From contig NZ_BAEO01000017.1 in NCBI RefSeq assembly GCF_000314995.1, positions 1 to 64,000 on the forward strand: a stretch of 64,000 nucleotides of DNA, written 5' to 3'. This DNA comes from Paraglaciecola arctica BSs20135. Lineage in GTDB: Bacteria > Pseudomonadota > Gammaproteobacteria > Enterobacterales > Alteromonadaceae. The notes under the pieces are model-generated. The model was given only the letters and a program-made list of their open reading frames with translations, was not told where the DNA came from and did no database searches. The position numbers and the translations under genes are program-made. Shown piece after piece: positions 1,668 through 64,000 of the stretch (within the stretch, counting starts at the first letter, position 1; each line of letters opens with the position of its first letter).

Positions 1668-1732
1668 TAAAAAATAGTGATGGGTTTACCCATACAAGAC
1701 AGTCATGGTAAAACTTTATACCAACTGCACAT

Positions 1733-2030
1733 GCCTTACGACGAAGTCGTGCTTTATGGCGAAGCCATGCTCTTGACTTACCCTCGACTCAAAGCTCGCC
1801 AATAATTGATTCCATTTTGTGGGTCAATCGCCATGGACAGGCGATTGAGCGGTGCGCCGTCTGGAACGGCTCAGCGCGACCTGAAAAATGGAATCAATTA
1901 TTGGATGAAGAGCTTTGCCCTCGAGCGGCATTTTTTGCTTACTTTTTGCTGCTGTTGGCAAAAAGTAAGTCGTACAGCAAGGATGCTGTGTGAAAAAAGC
2001 CAAGGATGGCAGTAAGCGTCAGCGCATGCT
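1733..2030 (+). repeat. GGA-loop multi-hairpin repeat, copy A
   Basis: Copy A of the family described in the findings. In order: GAA-loop hairpins (1738-1750, then ATGGC/GCCAT near 1756-1768); a conserved block ending CTCGACTCAAAGCTCGCC; a perfect 18-bp stem (1801-1818 with 1885-1902) enclosing two hairpins with loops ATGGACA (1833-1839) and CTGGA (1861-1865); a conserved 3' block with a 12-bp stem CTTACTTTTTGC / GCAAAAAGTAAG (1938-1969); then ACAGCA-AGGA-TGCTGT (1974-1989) and GCCA-AGGA-TGGC (1999-2010). Four loops carry GGA on this strand. It lies between the integrase fragment and the 3' end of leuA. A short frame across it (1806-2015) is not considered coding. Confidence 0.85.
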
Positions 2031-2050
2031 CTAAATTGCAGCTGGGCTAT

Positions 2051-29719: not shown

Positions 29720-30850
29720 TTGTCAGAGCGTAATCAATATGCATTGTTATTGTCAGGCGGTGGAGCAAGAGCCGCATATCAACTTGGCGTACTTAAAGCC
29801 ATTGCCACTTTTTTACCCCGCAACCAAGGTATACCTTTCCCAATAGTCTGCGGTAATTCCGCCGGTGCAATCAACGCTACAGGTTTAGCCTGTTATGCTT
29901 CCTGCTACCACCTTGGCCTTAGAAAACTAGAGTGGGTATGGAAAAATTTTCATACCCGCCAAGTATATGACAGTGGCATTAGAGACGTATTTAAACATTT
30001 AGCCGGTAATTTTCTGAGTAGTTTCCAATCCGAGCAACATCAAAAGAACCCTTCTAGTTTGTTAAACAATCAACCTTTAAGAAGGTTGATCAGAAGTCGT
30101 TTAGACTTTCATCGTATCGACAGAAATATTTCAAGCGGCCATTTGCGCGCTATCACTGTCAATGCTTCAAGCTACACAAGCCATGATTCCATTAGTTTTT
30201 ACCAAGGGCAAAGCGACATTAAACCTTGGCAACGTGAACAAAGGCGCGGTATTCCTTGTACCTTAAACTCAGAACATTTGGTTGCCTCGTCGGCTATTCC
30301 TATGCTGTTTCCACCGGTAAAAATGCTCGGTGAGTTTCTTGGTGATGGCTCTGTACACCAGTTATCCCCCCTTAGCCCAGCGATTCATTTAGGTGCAGAA
30401 AAAGTACTGATCATTGGTGTTGAACAACCTGAGAAAACATCTCGGTTTATCGATATGAATCGATTCCCCAGTAGCATCGCCATCGCGGGGCACTTGCTCG
30501 ACACCATTTTTGCCGACACCCTAAAGTCAGACCTTGAACGTCTTACGCGAATAAATGAAACCATCGCCCACATGACTTACAAACAGCAGCAACAAACCCA
30601 GCTAAAAACCATCGACACTTTGGCTATCAACCCAACGATTAACTTTAATGAAATGGCAGCCAAACACTTTCACCGAATGCCATCTGGGATCAAGATATTG
30701 TTACGTTTGATGGGGTTACACGATAAAGCTGACTCAAGTTTATTGAGTTATTTATTGTTTGAAAAAGAGTTCTGCCGTGAGTTGATTGATTTAGGTATGA
30801 AGGATGGGTTAGCTAGGCAGGATGAGTTGCGAAGTTTTTTGTCTATATAG
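29720..30850 (+). CDS. Patatin-like phospholipase
   Basis: A 376-residue patatin-domain lipase. Oxyanion loop LSGGGARAAYQLGVL near residue 12; nucleophile elbow GNSAG (Ser about 47); catalytic Asp in FLGDGSVHQLSPL (about residue 211). The start codon is TTG at 29720, supported by AGGGA and AGGA upstream; no better ATG exists. It has no signal peptide, so an intracellular membrane-lipid hydrolase is inferred. It is probably co-transcribed with the MBL hydrolase. Immediately downstream begins a repeat-rich accessory islet. Confidence 0.87.
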   Translation: MSERNQYALLLSGGGARAAYQLGVLKAIATFLPRNQGIPFPIVCGNSAGAINATGLACYASCYHLGLRKLEWVWKNFHTRQVYDSGIRDVFKHLAGNFLSSFQSEQHQKNPSSLLNNQPLRRLIRSRLDFHRIDRNISSGHLRAITVNASSYTSHDSISFYQGQSDIKPWQREQRRGIPCTLNSEHLVASSAIPMLFPPVKMLGEFLGDGSVHQLSPLSPAIHLGAEKVLIIGVEQPEKTSRFIDMNRFPSSIAIAGHLLDTIFADTLKSDLERLTRINETIAHMTYKQQQQTQLKTIDTLAINPTINFNEMAAKHFHRMPSGIKILLRLMGLHDKADSSLLSYLLFEKEFCRELIDLGMKDGLARQDELRSFLSI

Positions 30851-30878
30851 CATAGGATTTTGCCTTTTAGAGCTTGTA

Positions 30879-30990
30879 GAGCACGCTTCGCGCCAGTTAC
30901 GCTTTTTATTAAGTGCGTCCATGCACTTAACCTTATAGGCCAGCTAAAGCTGTTCCATATTTATCCCGTAAATATGGTTAACAGTAAAAA
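30879..30990 (-). repeat. Short GGA-loop hairpin repeat, copy D1
   Basis: On the minus strand two hairpins carry GGA in the loop: a 6-bp stem (AAGTGC/GCACTT, 30911-30928) with loop ATGGAC, and a 9-bp stem (30955-30963 with 30969-30977) with loop CGGGA. A third hairpin, CAGC/GCTG near 30941-30952, has no GGA. The left part resembles copy D2 but lacks the two 3' hairpins, so this is a partial copy. It faces away from copy B. Confidence 0.75.
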
Positions 30991-31030
30991 AGAGTAACCA
31001 GAAAATGCTGCACGCTACTTAAGTTTTTAA

Positions 31031-31371
31031 CCGAATGAAACTTTAAATGCGGGGAAAGCAGTGGCGGAGCCACCTAAGTTGTTTTCGGCAGAGCCGATTT
31101 TTTTCATTTTCCTTTTGCTCTACCCTCGACTCAAGGCTCGCCAACTATTAGGTGAATTTAGTAGGGTAATTTGCAGGGATGCAAATTAAGTTAGTCGTTG
31201 CCGGGAGCAAGTACAAACGACCTGCTAAATTTGCCTAATAGTTGGATGAAGAGCATTGCCCTCGAGCGGCATTTTTTGCTTACTTTTTGCTGCTGTTGGC
31301 AAAAAGTAAGTCGTACAGCAAGGATGCTGTGTGAAAAAAGCCATGGATGGCAGTAAGCGTCAGCGCATGCT
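31031..31371 (+). repeat. GGA-loop multi-hairpin repeat, copy B
   Basis: Full copy. Five hairpins have GGA in the loop on the plus strand: GTGGC-GGA-GCCAC (31061-31073); an 8-bp stem with loop GGGA (31168-31187); TTGC-CGGGA-GCAA (31198-31210); ACAGCA-AGGA-TGCTGT (31315-31330); GCCA-TGGA-TGGC (31340-31351). The second and third sit inside a 23-bp stem (31143-31165 with 31221-31243) whose three non-Watson-Crick positions are all G-U pairs. The 3' 130 bases are almost identical to copy A, while the stem region is unrelated in sequence but the same in layout. Confidence 0.87.
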
Positions 31372-31381
31372 TTACCTCTTT

Positions 31382-31530
31382 ATAAAAAGCACGCTACGCG
31401 CCATCATCCATGATGGTTTTTGTCTCGAATCCTTTCGAGCCAGTTACTCTTTTTATTAAGTGCGTCCATGCACCTTACCTGTCAGGCCAGCTAAAGCTGT
31501 TCTATATTTATCCCGTAAATATGGTTAACC
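31382..31530 (-). repeat. Short GGA-loop hairpin repeat, copy D2
   Basis: On the minus strand four hairpins have GGA loops: ATATTTA/TAAATAT with loop CGGGA (31504-31522); GTGC/GCAC with loop ATGGAC (31460-31473); CTCGAA-AGGA-TTCGAG (31424-31439); CCATCA-TGGA-TGATGG (31401-31416). The sequence then ends GCGCGTAGCGTGCTTTTTA, resembling a weak terminator. It converges with copy B, whose 3' end is 10 bases away. Confidence 0.82.
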
Positions 31531-31532
31531 GC

Positions 31533-31557
31533 AATTAACAGGACAGCCATGTTAATT
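31533..31557 (+). repeat. Short palindromic repeat R1 (AATTAACA/TGTTAATT arms)
   Basis: AATTAACA (31533-31540) and TGTTAATT (31550-31557) are perfect 8-bp arms around GGACAGCCA. The same palindrome recurs at 32360, 32628 and, degenerate, 34727, 57812 (minus), 58474 (minus) and 58602. Its form recalls REP sequences used by RAYT transposases, but no such transposase is in the window. Confidence 0.75.
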
Positions 31558-31621
31558 TATATCCTTATCATTGGTTTAAATTCGTTCAATATAGATGGCA
31601 TACTAAGTCGGCAGAAGGACA

Positions 31622-57402: not shown

Positions 57403-57464
57403 GATCAGGGTTCAGGCTTACGCTTTATTGCTAGCGTAAGCCTCTTATAATACGGCAAACAAAA

Positions 57465-57790
57465 GCACGCTACGCGCCATCGTCCTTGATGGTTTTTGTC
57501 TCGGATCCCTTCGAGCCAGTCACTTTTTCTTCTACAGCTAAGAATAAAGTAACCAAAAAGAAGCCGCTCGCTACTATGTTCTTCACCCAATTACCTAGCA
57601 AATTTAGCAGGTCGTTTGTACACGTACCTGACGTGGACAAACTCAATTTACGTCCTGTAAATTGCCTTACAAAATTCACCAGCTAATCGGCGAACATACA
57701 TGGGAGGGTAAATCAAAAGATTAGAGCATCGGCTACGCCGCATACCACTTTGGTGGCTCCGCCATTTCTTTTAGCCTTTAAACCGCATGA
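57465..57790 (-). repeat. GGA-loop multi-hairpin repeat, copy D3 (full, minus strand)
   Basis: Read on the minus strand it has the same order as copies A and B. TGGC-GGA-GCCA (57754-57764); a GTA-loop hairpin; a TACCCTC block; a left arm (57664-57688); a 7-bp stem with loop AGGAC (57645-57663); a second internal hairpin; the right arm (57589-57611); a conserved-type 3' block; a CTCG/CGAG hairpin with loop containing AGGGA (57500-57515); CCATC-AAGGAC-GATGG (57477-57492); and GCGCGTAGCGTGCTTTTG. Sequence identity to A/B is low in the stems, but the layout and loop GGA are kept. Confidence 0.82.
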
Positions 57791-57811
57791 AATGACTTAA
57801 TATTGCGCCAA

Positions 57812-57916: not shown

Positions 57917-58165
57917 ATGACTACAAGAATATTAACTGAAGCAGCAGTAAGTATTAGTGAATTAAAAGCTAACCCAATGAAGGTTGCTATGAGTGCGGGC
58001 GGAGAAGCAATTGCTGTTTTAAATAGAAACGAACCTGCGTTTTATTGCATACCAGCAGATACTTATGAATTTATGATGGATCACATGGAAGATCTTGAAT
58101 TATTGAGCATTGCTGAGGCTAGAAGGAATGAAGAAAGTATAAAGGTAAATTTAAGTGACCTATGA
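57917..58165 (+). CDS. Phd/YefM-superfamily antitoxin (RelB-like)
   Basis: An 82-residue antitoxin: an N-terminal DNA-binding fold (AVSISELKANPMKVAMSAGG, EAIAVLNRNEPAFYCIPADTYE) followed by a helix and a C-terminal tail (AEARRNEESIKVNLSDL) suited to clamping a RelE toxin. It overlaps the toxin gene by 11 bases. GAGA precedes the ATG. It lies in a repeat-rich islet between direct copies of the R palindrome, a hint that the pair was acquired. Confidence 0.85.
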   Translation: MTTRILTEAAVSISELKANPMKVAMSAGGEAIAVLNRNEPAFYCIPADTYEFMMDHMEDLELLSIAEARRNEESIKVNLSDL

Positions 58166-58442
58166 GCTTGAGTTTAAGAAAACGGCACTCAAAGAGTGGA
58201 AAAAACTGGGCTCGACAATACGAGAACAATTTAAGAAAAAATTAGCTGAGATAATAGAAAATCCTCATATTCAAAGTGCAAAGATGTCCGGTGCTAATGA
58301 GCTATATAAGATCAAATTAAGACAAGTGGGCTATCGCTTAGTATATGAAGTCAATGACTCTATTATTACAGTCACTGTGATTTCAGTTGGAAAACGTAAC
58401 AAAGGAAAAGTCTACGAAGCGGCAATGACGCGCACAAACTAA
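58155..58442 (+). CDS. relE: RelE-family mRNA interferase toxin
   Basis: A 95-residue RelE-fold toxin: TYELEFKKTALKEWKKLGS, then IRQ-like IREQFKKKLAEIIENPH, KMSGANELYKIKLRQVGYRLVYEV and the C-terminal VISVGKRNKGKVYEAA. The Arg/Lys-rich strand KIKLRQVGYRLVY carries the catalytic basic residues of RelE. It is expected to cut ribosome-bound mRNA when the antitoxin is degraded. Translation is coupled to the antitoxin. Intact. Confidence 0.88.
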   Translation: MTYELEFKKTALKEWKKLGSTIREQFKKKLAEIIENPHIQSAKMSGANELYKIKLRQVGYRLVYEVNDSIITVTVISVGKRNKGKVYEAAMTRTN

Positions 58443-58554: not shown

Positions 58555-59052
58555 CAGCTGAAACTTTAAAGGCGGAAAAGGCAGTGGGGCAAAACTAACA
58601 GAACTAACAGGACAGGCACGATAACTATTTATTAAAACGTTTAGTCGGCAAAGCCGATGCTTTTCTTATGCTCTACCCTCGCATCTATGTTCGCCAATTA
58701 TTTTTGATATTTCGTAGGGTGAAACTGGATTCCTTAGAAGCACAGCTTCGCCCAGTTGAACAGCTCGACAAGCGACCGCCATGGACGGCGGAAGGTAGAA
58801 CAATGCAGGAGCAATTGTCGAGAAGTCGAGATTGGGTGCTGATCATCAAGGATGTGTGATTGACTAATTCGAAGTGGTTCCACGAGTTTGGGAAGTTGGT
58901 ACTGAAATATCATAAATAATCGGATGAAGAGCATTGCCCTCGAGCGGCATTTTTTGCTTACTTTTTGCTGCGGTTGGCAAAAAGTAAGTCGTACAGCAAG
59001 GTTGCTGTGTGAAAAAAGCCACGGAGGGCGGTAAGCGCCAGCGCATGCTTTA
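58555..59052 (+). repeat. GGA-loop multi-hairpin repeat, copy C (enlarged)
   Basis: A longer copy. GAAACTTTAAA and a TCGGC/GCCGA hairpin with AAA loop lead into the conserved TACCCTCG block, then the arms (58696-58717 with about 58900-58920). Inside are extra branches: AACTGG/CCAGTT (58723-58756), CTCGAC/GTCGAG, CCGCC/GGCGG with loop ATGGAC (58776-58791), and TGC-AGGA-GCA (58804-58813). The 3' block is nearly identical to A and B, but its first hairpin has AGGT in the loop (58994-59009) and its second has ACGGA (59021-59025). Palindrome R7 is embedded at 58602-58630. Confidence 0.78.
58602..58630 (+). repeat. Short palindromic repeat R7, nested in copy C
   Basis: AACTAACA, then GGACAGGCACG, then ATAACTATT: a diverged R1-type palindrome lying between two segments of copy C that are close together in copy B. 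This suggests later insertion. Confidence 0.5.
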
Positions 59053-59308
59053 GGATTAAAAGTAATCCCTCCACACACATAAAATCAAATGTTAACAACT
59101 ATCGACTAAACCTCCTAAAACAACCATTGTTCTTAGTAATTCCTTTCTAATGTAAGAAAATCACAGTTTATCCTTGCTTTTTTCGCTCAGACTGGCAAAT
59201 TCAAGTGCGCGATTGAACCAACAAAAATAGCAGAAGAAGTCGCGATATCAGGCTTGGCGCAATATAATAGTCAAGCCCCTATAACCAGCAATTAAGAGAA
59301 ATATTTTT

Positions 59309-63973: not shown

Positions 63974-64000
63974 CATCTGCGAAGCAGATGTTCTTGATCT
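63974..64000 (+). repeat. Possible 5' end of another GGA-loop repeat, cut by the window edge
   Basis: CATCTGC-GAA-GCAGATG (63974-63990) followed by TTCTTGATCT resembles the 5' hairpin of copy A (ATGGC-GAA-GCCAT followed by GCTCTTGACTT at 1756-1779). The rest would be beyond the window. Confidence 0.4.

Follow-up and report, generated by a model that had tools for sequence, protein, structure and literature searches.

The window analysed here, a 64,000-nt stretch of the Paraglaciecola arctica BSs20135 genome, contains copies of a dispersed multi-hairpin repeat with GGA in many of its hairpin loops. A sequence-only reading had described four full and two short copies, and all six were recovered with slightly shifted ends. 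The copies are the following (R1 is the model of the 3' module described below).

1730..2036, plus strand: element A, whose core stem and hairpin A differ in sequence with full pairing; R1 match at 1925-2028
30861..30995, minus strand: short element 1, resembling the 3' module with the loop of the long stem swapped for extra GGA hairpins
31031..31380, plus strand: element B, the copy of the original finding, with 5' hairpins, a TwoAYGGAY-like core and a 3' module
31373..31545, minus strand: short element 2, of the same type as short element 1 and 88% identical to it over 108 nt
57465..57795, minus strand: element C; R1 match at 57462-57567
58561..59060, plus strand: element D, with a longer core domain; R1 match at 58944-59047
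63994..64000: start of a seventh copy (contig 56:63994-64229), of which 7 bases lie within the window and the rest beyond its end

Immediately upstream of element A, a short ORF (1212-1667) encodes the N-terminal domain of a tyrosine recombinase (Phage_int_SAM_4). Between elements C and D there is a ParE-like toxin gene (58155-58442), in an interval that is unaligned in P. arctica A3R16 (L032), the strain with the closest named asnB (97%). In the genome of the strain itself (5.96 Mb, 72 contigs), BLAST with the sequence 31031-31371 gave 55 whole or partial matches.

Folding of 23 copies from this genome, together with alignments of 33 3' modules and 50 cores, yielded a single plan. The 5' part is made up of small hairpins whose loops have three bases. 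A 25-bp stem enclosing hairpins A and B forms the core, and in the 3' module the long T/A stem is followed by hairpin C, then by an A-run, and then by hairpin D. In element B these parts are located as follows.

31061..31073, plus strand: 5' hairpin GTGGC-GGA-GCCAC with a three-base loop
31141..31165, plus strand: 5' arm of the 25-bp core long stem (helix 1, 96.6% of cells paired)
31167..31188, plus strand: hairpin A, TAATTTGCA-GGGA-TGCAAATTA, read as a loop A-N-GGA-X on a C-G pair
31191..31217, plus strand: hairpin B with a CGGGA loop
31221..31245, plus strand: 3' arm of the core long stem
31266..31369, plus strand: 3' module with the long T/A stem and hairpins C and D, scoring 119.5 bits with model R1, of which it is itself one of the founding sequences
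31279..31310, plus strand: long stem H5, CTTACTTTTTGC/GCAAAAAGTAAG
31312..31333, plus strand: hairpin C, CAGCA-AGGA-TGCTG
31340..31351, plus strand: hairpin D, GCCA-TGGA-TGGC, which on the opposite strand is followed by T6 and is terminator-like

The sequence of the stems diverged strongly among copies, often as entire alternative arms with pairing retained (CAATTTACA/TGTAAATTG versus CAATCGCC/GGCGATTG), and the arms of the core long stem in particular varied from copy to copy with complementarity kept. GGA loops were not universal among the hairpins of the element. Most of the 5' hairpins had loops of three bases (e.g., GAA, AGA, GGA, or GTA), and the loop of the long 3' stem was of the GCTG(T/C)(A/T)G type; the 5' hairpin at 31061..31073 had GGA, GAA, GTA, or AGA in its loop, depending on the copy. 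The 5' hairpins at the 5' ends of elements frequently read GCGNAGC, e.g., at 31061-31073 and 31085-31097, a motif that is unusually stable in DNA. In some copies GC-rich mini-hairpins (GCGGACGCCGCGC and variants) were located in or next to GGA loops, as if inserted into the loop (L158, L162, L164, L167, L172, and L173 in relatives and contig 11:236416 in the own genome).

The sequence-only reading had counted about 20 hairpins with GGA loops, always on the strand of the element. In the six window elements we counted 52 hairpins (perfect stems of at least 4 bp, loops of 3 to 8 nt), of which, read in the orientation of the element, 22 had a GGA loop, none had a TCC loop, and 30 had neither. Each window copy had 2 to 5 GGA hairpins. 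With stems of at least 6 bp, GGA was present in 10 of 14 element hairpins, and the 123 hairpins in the rest of the window included no GGA and one TCC loop. The same reading had suggested counting loop GGA against shuffled sequences. Among 126 hairpins (stem of at least 5 bp) in 23 full copies from the own genome, 62 had GGA and 2 had TCC loops, compared to means of 2.5 and 1.1 in dinucleotide shuffles of these copies. As a further control, 678 hairpins (stem of at least 7 bp) from 78 loci of other genera were inspected, in which GGA was not among the eight commonest loop triplets. The shuffles and the two controls exclude chance as the source of the GGA loops. Across 73 copies, CANGGANG, a motif published before (PMC4353343), occurred 108 times on the plus strand and 3 times on the minus strand. 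Mimicry of ribosome-binding sites was considered as a reason for such loops and rejected, as AGGAG/GGAGG occurred just 24 times on the plus and 10 times on the minus strand of the 73 copies, compared to 446 and 60 occurrences of GGA.

Covariation, which had been proposed as a check on the hairpins, was analyzed in the core and in the 3' module separately, by shuffle-based counts. The core alignment A2 comprised 50 of the 73 copies; the 23 omitted copies had unmatched anchor words or an unusual length. The module alignment A1 comprised 33 of 65 pieces; the omitted ones were 25 that had been cut at 118 nt, the majority out of register, and a further 7. RNAalifold put the long stem wrongly in A1 because of gaps, and the structure was therefore set by hand. 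Over the three covarying helices of the core, 93.6% of the cells were paired, and 495 cells were double changes, compared to 145 (standard deviation 12) in shuffles, with a covariation value of 0.572 versus 0.167. In the module, 90.8% of the cells were paired, with 143 double-change cells versus 43 (standard deviation 6) and a covariation value of 0.479 versus 0.190. None of 500 shuffles matched the observed double-change or covariation values of either part; relatedness of the copies inflates this test, but the effect is nonetheless large. When partners were slid along the alignment, covariation was 0.065 to 0.105, a comparison in which the actual structure has an advantage over the slid versions because it was drawn from these very sequences. 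The number of further pair types was no higher than in the shuffles (core, 79 versus 78.2, 234/500 shuffles; module, 40 versus 37.6, 90/500 shuffles). By double changes and covariation value, the stems of both parts covary strongly.

The mispairs were counted by type. Read on the GGA strand, G·T cells outnumbered A·C cells in the core (137 versus 33) and in the module (45 versus 11). A single recurrent G·T pair accounts for 44 of these cells; of the 33 A·C cells, 24 fall on one loop-closing and one internal-loop position. Counted per column pair, the ratio was 20 to 9 in the core and 11 to 5 in the module, and a separate ungapped count over distinct hairpins and arms gave 28 G·T versus 1 A·C. 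This excess favors an RNA read from the GGA strand, and it is very likely that a structured RNA is encoded on this strand. These data also bear on the idea that the copies are non-functional remnants of a once-active repeat, with a structure held by template switching from arm to arm (quasi-palindrome correction). The occurrence of stems as discrete sequence alleles with near-perfect pairing is in agreement with this idea, but template switching predicts neither a fixed A-N-G-G-A loop nor an excess of G·T over A·C on one strand, and GGA loops recur in several other genera, so that we regard it as very improbable.

The optimal RsmE/CsrA site is an ANGGAX hexaloop placed straight on a stem whose closing pair is C-G, and its N and X may be any base (PMC4005645). 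Hairpins A and D agree with this description fully, and hairpins B and C in part. In the 50 cores, hairpin A reads C-A-N-G-G-A (C in 50, A in 49, N free, G in 49, G in 50, A in 50); its closing C-G pair is present in 49 of 50, and the next two pairs below take three types each. Hairpin D of the 33 modules reads A-N-G-G-A (A 31, N free, G 33, G 30, A 32), with a closing C-G pair in 28. Conservation is weaker in hairpin C (A 29, G 32, G 28, and A 27 of 33), whose closing pair is A-U in 23 and C-G in 8 modules. In hairpin B, GGA is kept in 50, 49, and 49 of the 50 cores, with a loop of the CGGGA/CTGGA type that fits the consensus more poorly. By their match to the published consensus, the loops of hairpins A and D are predicted high-affinity CsrA/RsmE sites. 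The host CsrA is identical to the solved chain 1y00_A at 52 of 58 aligned residues, including Arg44. We take 1y00_A to be CsrA of E. coli. CsrA is a likely partner of the repeat RNA, and the repeat is probably a CsrA-binding RNA.

The own genome also contains a separate CsrB-like locus (contig 33:26987-27319), which matched RF00018 with 28.9 bits, below the cut-off of 71. The stretch around it (L141:1120-1860, 741 nt) has 50 GGA versus 3 TCC and tandem internal repeats. No Rfam family, CsrB/Rsm models included, matched in the window, and in the own genome RF00018 matched the CsrB-like locus only. This locus is reminiscent of the three-sRNA Aln1a-c region of Alteromonas. The repeat shares with CsrB/CsrC, RsmX/Y/Z, and Aln1a-c the presence of many GGA sites per RNA and of A(N)GGA loops, but those RNAs are the products of one to few dedicated, strongly expressed genes (PMC5864184). 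A conserved promoter was not seen by eye in the 90 nt upstream of the core.

The reading that we prefer is that this high-copy, dispersed, modular repeat gives rise to structured RNA from its GGA strand and that the transcribed copies bind CsrA and jointly titrate it alongside the CsrB-like RNA; we assign it a probability of about 0.6. In this mechanism, the GGA strand of each dispersed copy would encode a structured RNA with a core, in which a long stem closes two GGA-loop hairpins, and a following 3' module with a long T/A stem, to which two more GGA-loop hairpins are added in the genus. If the GGA strand is transcribed, each copy could bind at least one CsrA dimer, and in sum the numerous copies might titrate CsrA beside the dedicated CsrB-like RNA.

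A different explanation of the same anatomy starts from the DNA. REP elements are associated with RAYT transposase, and the repeat could be a mobile palindrome of the REP/MITE kind whose hairpins, when single-stranded, serve as transposase substrates, with the GGA loops as recognition marks of the enzyme and CsrA irrelevant. The dispersed intergenic copies, the mosaic modules and nested hairpins, and the insertion-like mini-hairpins within GGA loops of some relatives would suit such an element. REP/BIME-type repeats (PMC3733652) are likewise intergenic dispersed palindromes, but REPs have 20 to 40 bp and belong for the most part to two tagged super-families, GTAG and CGTC; the repeat has about 300 nt and several hairpins, and its loop motif is strand specific. 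Shared ends or a target duplication were not established, the excess of G·T over A·C favors a function of the GGA strand, in the form of RNA, and loop and closing pair fit the CsrA site base by base. We therefore consider a purely DNA-level element unlikely.

For the RNA reading, a relationship to a known family is relevant. TwoAYGGAY RNA (Rfam RF01731) is listed in a 2010 report as probably an RNA and probably not cis-regulatory (PMC2864571). Its Rfam type is Cis-reg, and it is placed with PrrB/RsmZ in clan CL00106, whose meaning we take from these members, the ones met. CsrA binding of TwoAYGGAY was predicted in 2014 from motif matches (PMC4333381), and the mechanism suggested by the sequence-only reading had thus already been proposed for the family. 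Like TwoAYGGAY, the core has a long stem around two adjacent hairpins with GGA loops. At the positions of AYGGAY, hairpin A had A in 49, Y in 29, G in 49, G in 50, A in 50, and Y in 45 of 50 cores; hairpin B differs from TwoAYGGAY in that its loop is CGGGA or CTGGA, mostly C-G-GGA and not AYGGAY.

The gathering cut-off of TwoAYGGAY is 43 bits, and the copies of the own genome are below it. Two of 11 full copies (in 8 stretches) scored 41.4 and 40.7 bits, and the other nine were not listed at E values up to 5. No match was obtained in the window at the gathering cut-off, in 30850-31560 (element B) at E values up to 5, or in the own genome at E values up to 0.01; that element B shares the TwoAYGGAY-like core follows from its alignment with the copies of 41.4 and 40.7 bits. 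Among 60 relatives including the own genome, 22 had a TwoAYGGAY match at E values up to 0.01, and 14 were above the cut-off (9 congeners and 5 others); one locus of another genus (g47) reached 49.8 bits. In the four congeners listed by both the TwoAYGGAY and the module searches (G007, G008, G009, and G019), the 3' module followed 12 of 14 TwoAYGGAY matches on the same strand within 10 nt, and for the remaining two it was 92 and 154 nt away. By sequence and structure, we classify the core as a putative divergent relative of TwoAYGGAY, from which the repeat as a whole differs by its 3' module with two further hairpins and by its many dispersed copies per genome. The sequence-only reading knew of no description of such a repeat, which is corrected for the core by PMC4333381. 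In the mostly open-access literature searched, we found the family described neither as dispersed in many copies nor together with the 3' module. Within the scope of these searches, both the high-copy dispersal and the conserved 3' module behind TwoAYGGAY matches are new. Bacillaceae-1 RNA was set apart by its description; in PMC4333381 it is assigned to Bacillales and Lactobacillales, unlike the repeat. Rfam sRNA-Xcc1 was considered as well and gave no match in the scanned window, the locus of the relatives, or the stretches of the own genome.

The sequence-only reading had allowed for mRNA tails as an alternative to separate RNAs. Neighboring genes were called as mechanical ORFs of at least 80 amino acids in non-independent copies, with flanks of about 400 nt in the relatives. 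An upstream gene was callable at 47 of the 73 copies (no call at 26) and had the same direction in 24 and the opposite direction in 23 cases; a downstream gene was callable at 55 copies (no call at 18) and was convergent in 37 and in the same direction in 18 cases. By these orientations, most copies would not be read on the GGA strand as the end of an upstream mRNA, and this version was rejected, since upstream genes face either way and downstream genes mostly converge. The CsrA proposal is supported by loops that fit the CsrA/RsmE consensus, covarying stems, a favored GGA strand, and a host CsrA close to 1y00_A.

The many convergent downstream genes are also what would be expected of terminator or insulator repeats, which end neighboring transcription on both sides and are selected for their hairpins and T-runs. 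A hairpin followed by T4 or more was found on the opposite strand of 52 of the 73 copies and on the GGA strand of 28, and hairpin D with the A-run is terminator-like when read on the opposite strand. Behind leuA of one congener (G015), the element is reduced to its 3' end (L205:3171-3245), at the place and in the orientation of element A. Termination does not account for loops that read A-N-G-G-A almost without exception, for the bias of GGA toward one strand, or for the inner hairpins and the covariation of the long core stem, and as the principal role of the repeat we consider it distinctly unlikely. A secondary role as terminator for the adjacent convergent gene is plausible.

We infer mobility of the repeat only from its dispersal, its nested modules, and differences in copy number. 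The interval between M28 and asnB did not provide a clean empty site: nothing in P. arctica A3R16 aligns there with elements C and D, but the intervening DNA differs too. ORFs between element parts occur in the own genome, e.g., at L121:12756-13919, and no obvious ORF-bearing autonomous version was present in the ORF lists of 20 own-genome stretches. For T2SSG, no close relative was found in congeners (best identity, 44%).

The element was detected by BLAST in 21 of 21 congeners and in none of 38 genomes outside the genus. The 3'-module model reached further and, with the own genome counted, matched in 18 of 118 genomes and 9 of 52 genera of the family, in 28 of 274 genomes and 26 of 222 genera of the Gammaproteobacteria, and, across the phylum, in 19 of 398 genomes (18 from the Gammaproteobacteria and one, with a weak match, from outside); module copy numbers per genome from these searches are to be read as "at least." The 300 nt upstream of a match lie outside the model. 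In this region, 27 class-level loci (35 matches) had 37 GGA versus 7 TCC loops, compared to 3 versus 8 downstream; GGA exceeded TCC upstream in 14 loci, was less frequent in 2, and was equal in 11. At the phylum level, 20 of the 23 new loci (L300-L322) were used, with L277 in addition. The 20 further loci counted had 27 GGA versus 6 TCC loops upstream and 1 versus 4 downstream, with more GGA in 9 and equal numbers in 11. Approximately half of the module loci thus had upstream GGA loops, and there was no GGA excess in 13 of 27 class-level and 11 of 20 phylum-level loci. The plan of a GGA core with a long stem appears, on these counts, to recur in many genera, not in all. Within the module itself, 6 of 70 class-level hairpins had GGA, 3 had TCC, and 61 had neither, so that loop GGA in hairpins C and D is characteristic chiefly of the genus and some relatives. 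At the family level it was found at loci of three other genera (g47, g14, and g75) and was not seen in two loci of a further one (g60).

Of 40 module-positive genomes, 36 had CsrA, as did 14 of the 16 module-negative ones; as CsrA is near-universal, its co-occurrence with the module is little informative. Three of the four module-positive genomes without a CsrA match were 73 to 86% complete, and one was complete (G381). The locus of G381 had no GGA loop upstream of the module. In family f132, the module matched without an upstream GGA loop at five loci (L277, L302, L305, L317, and L319 in G381, G608, and G618).

CsrA governs carbon use, motility, and biofilm formation in Gammaproteobacteria, and in the usual view it is restrained by one to few dedicated RNAs. 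As a tentative extension, for which we see less than even chances, transposon-like RNA repeats throughout the class could act as a distributed CsrA sponge, with dozens of copies in the own genome and several hairpins near the best known CsrA site. Free CsrA would then be set by transcription and copy number of the repeat as well as by CsrB, and the repeat may have spread because CsrA binding protects its RNA or benefits the host. If this is true, control would have a second layer that depends on the copy number of the scattered near-ideal CsrA sites, TwoAYGGAY, an orphan Rfam family, would gain a testable function and a genomic context, and the repeat would be an example of one whose loops are selected to bind a host regulator. 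A search of the plasmid collection gave no match to the element. In the phage collection, a single match of 49 nt with 94% identity was found in an unannotated faecal phage record (MT836014.1:6291-6339).
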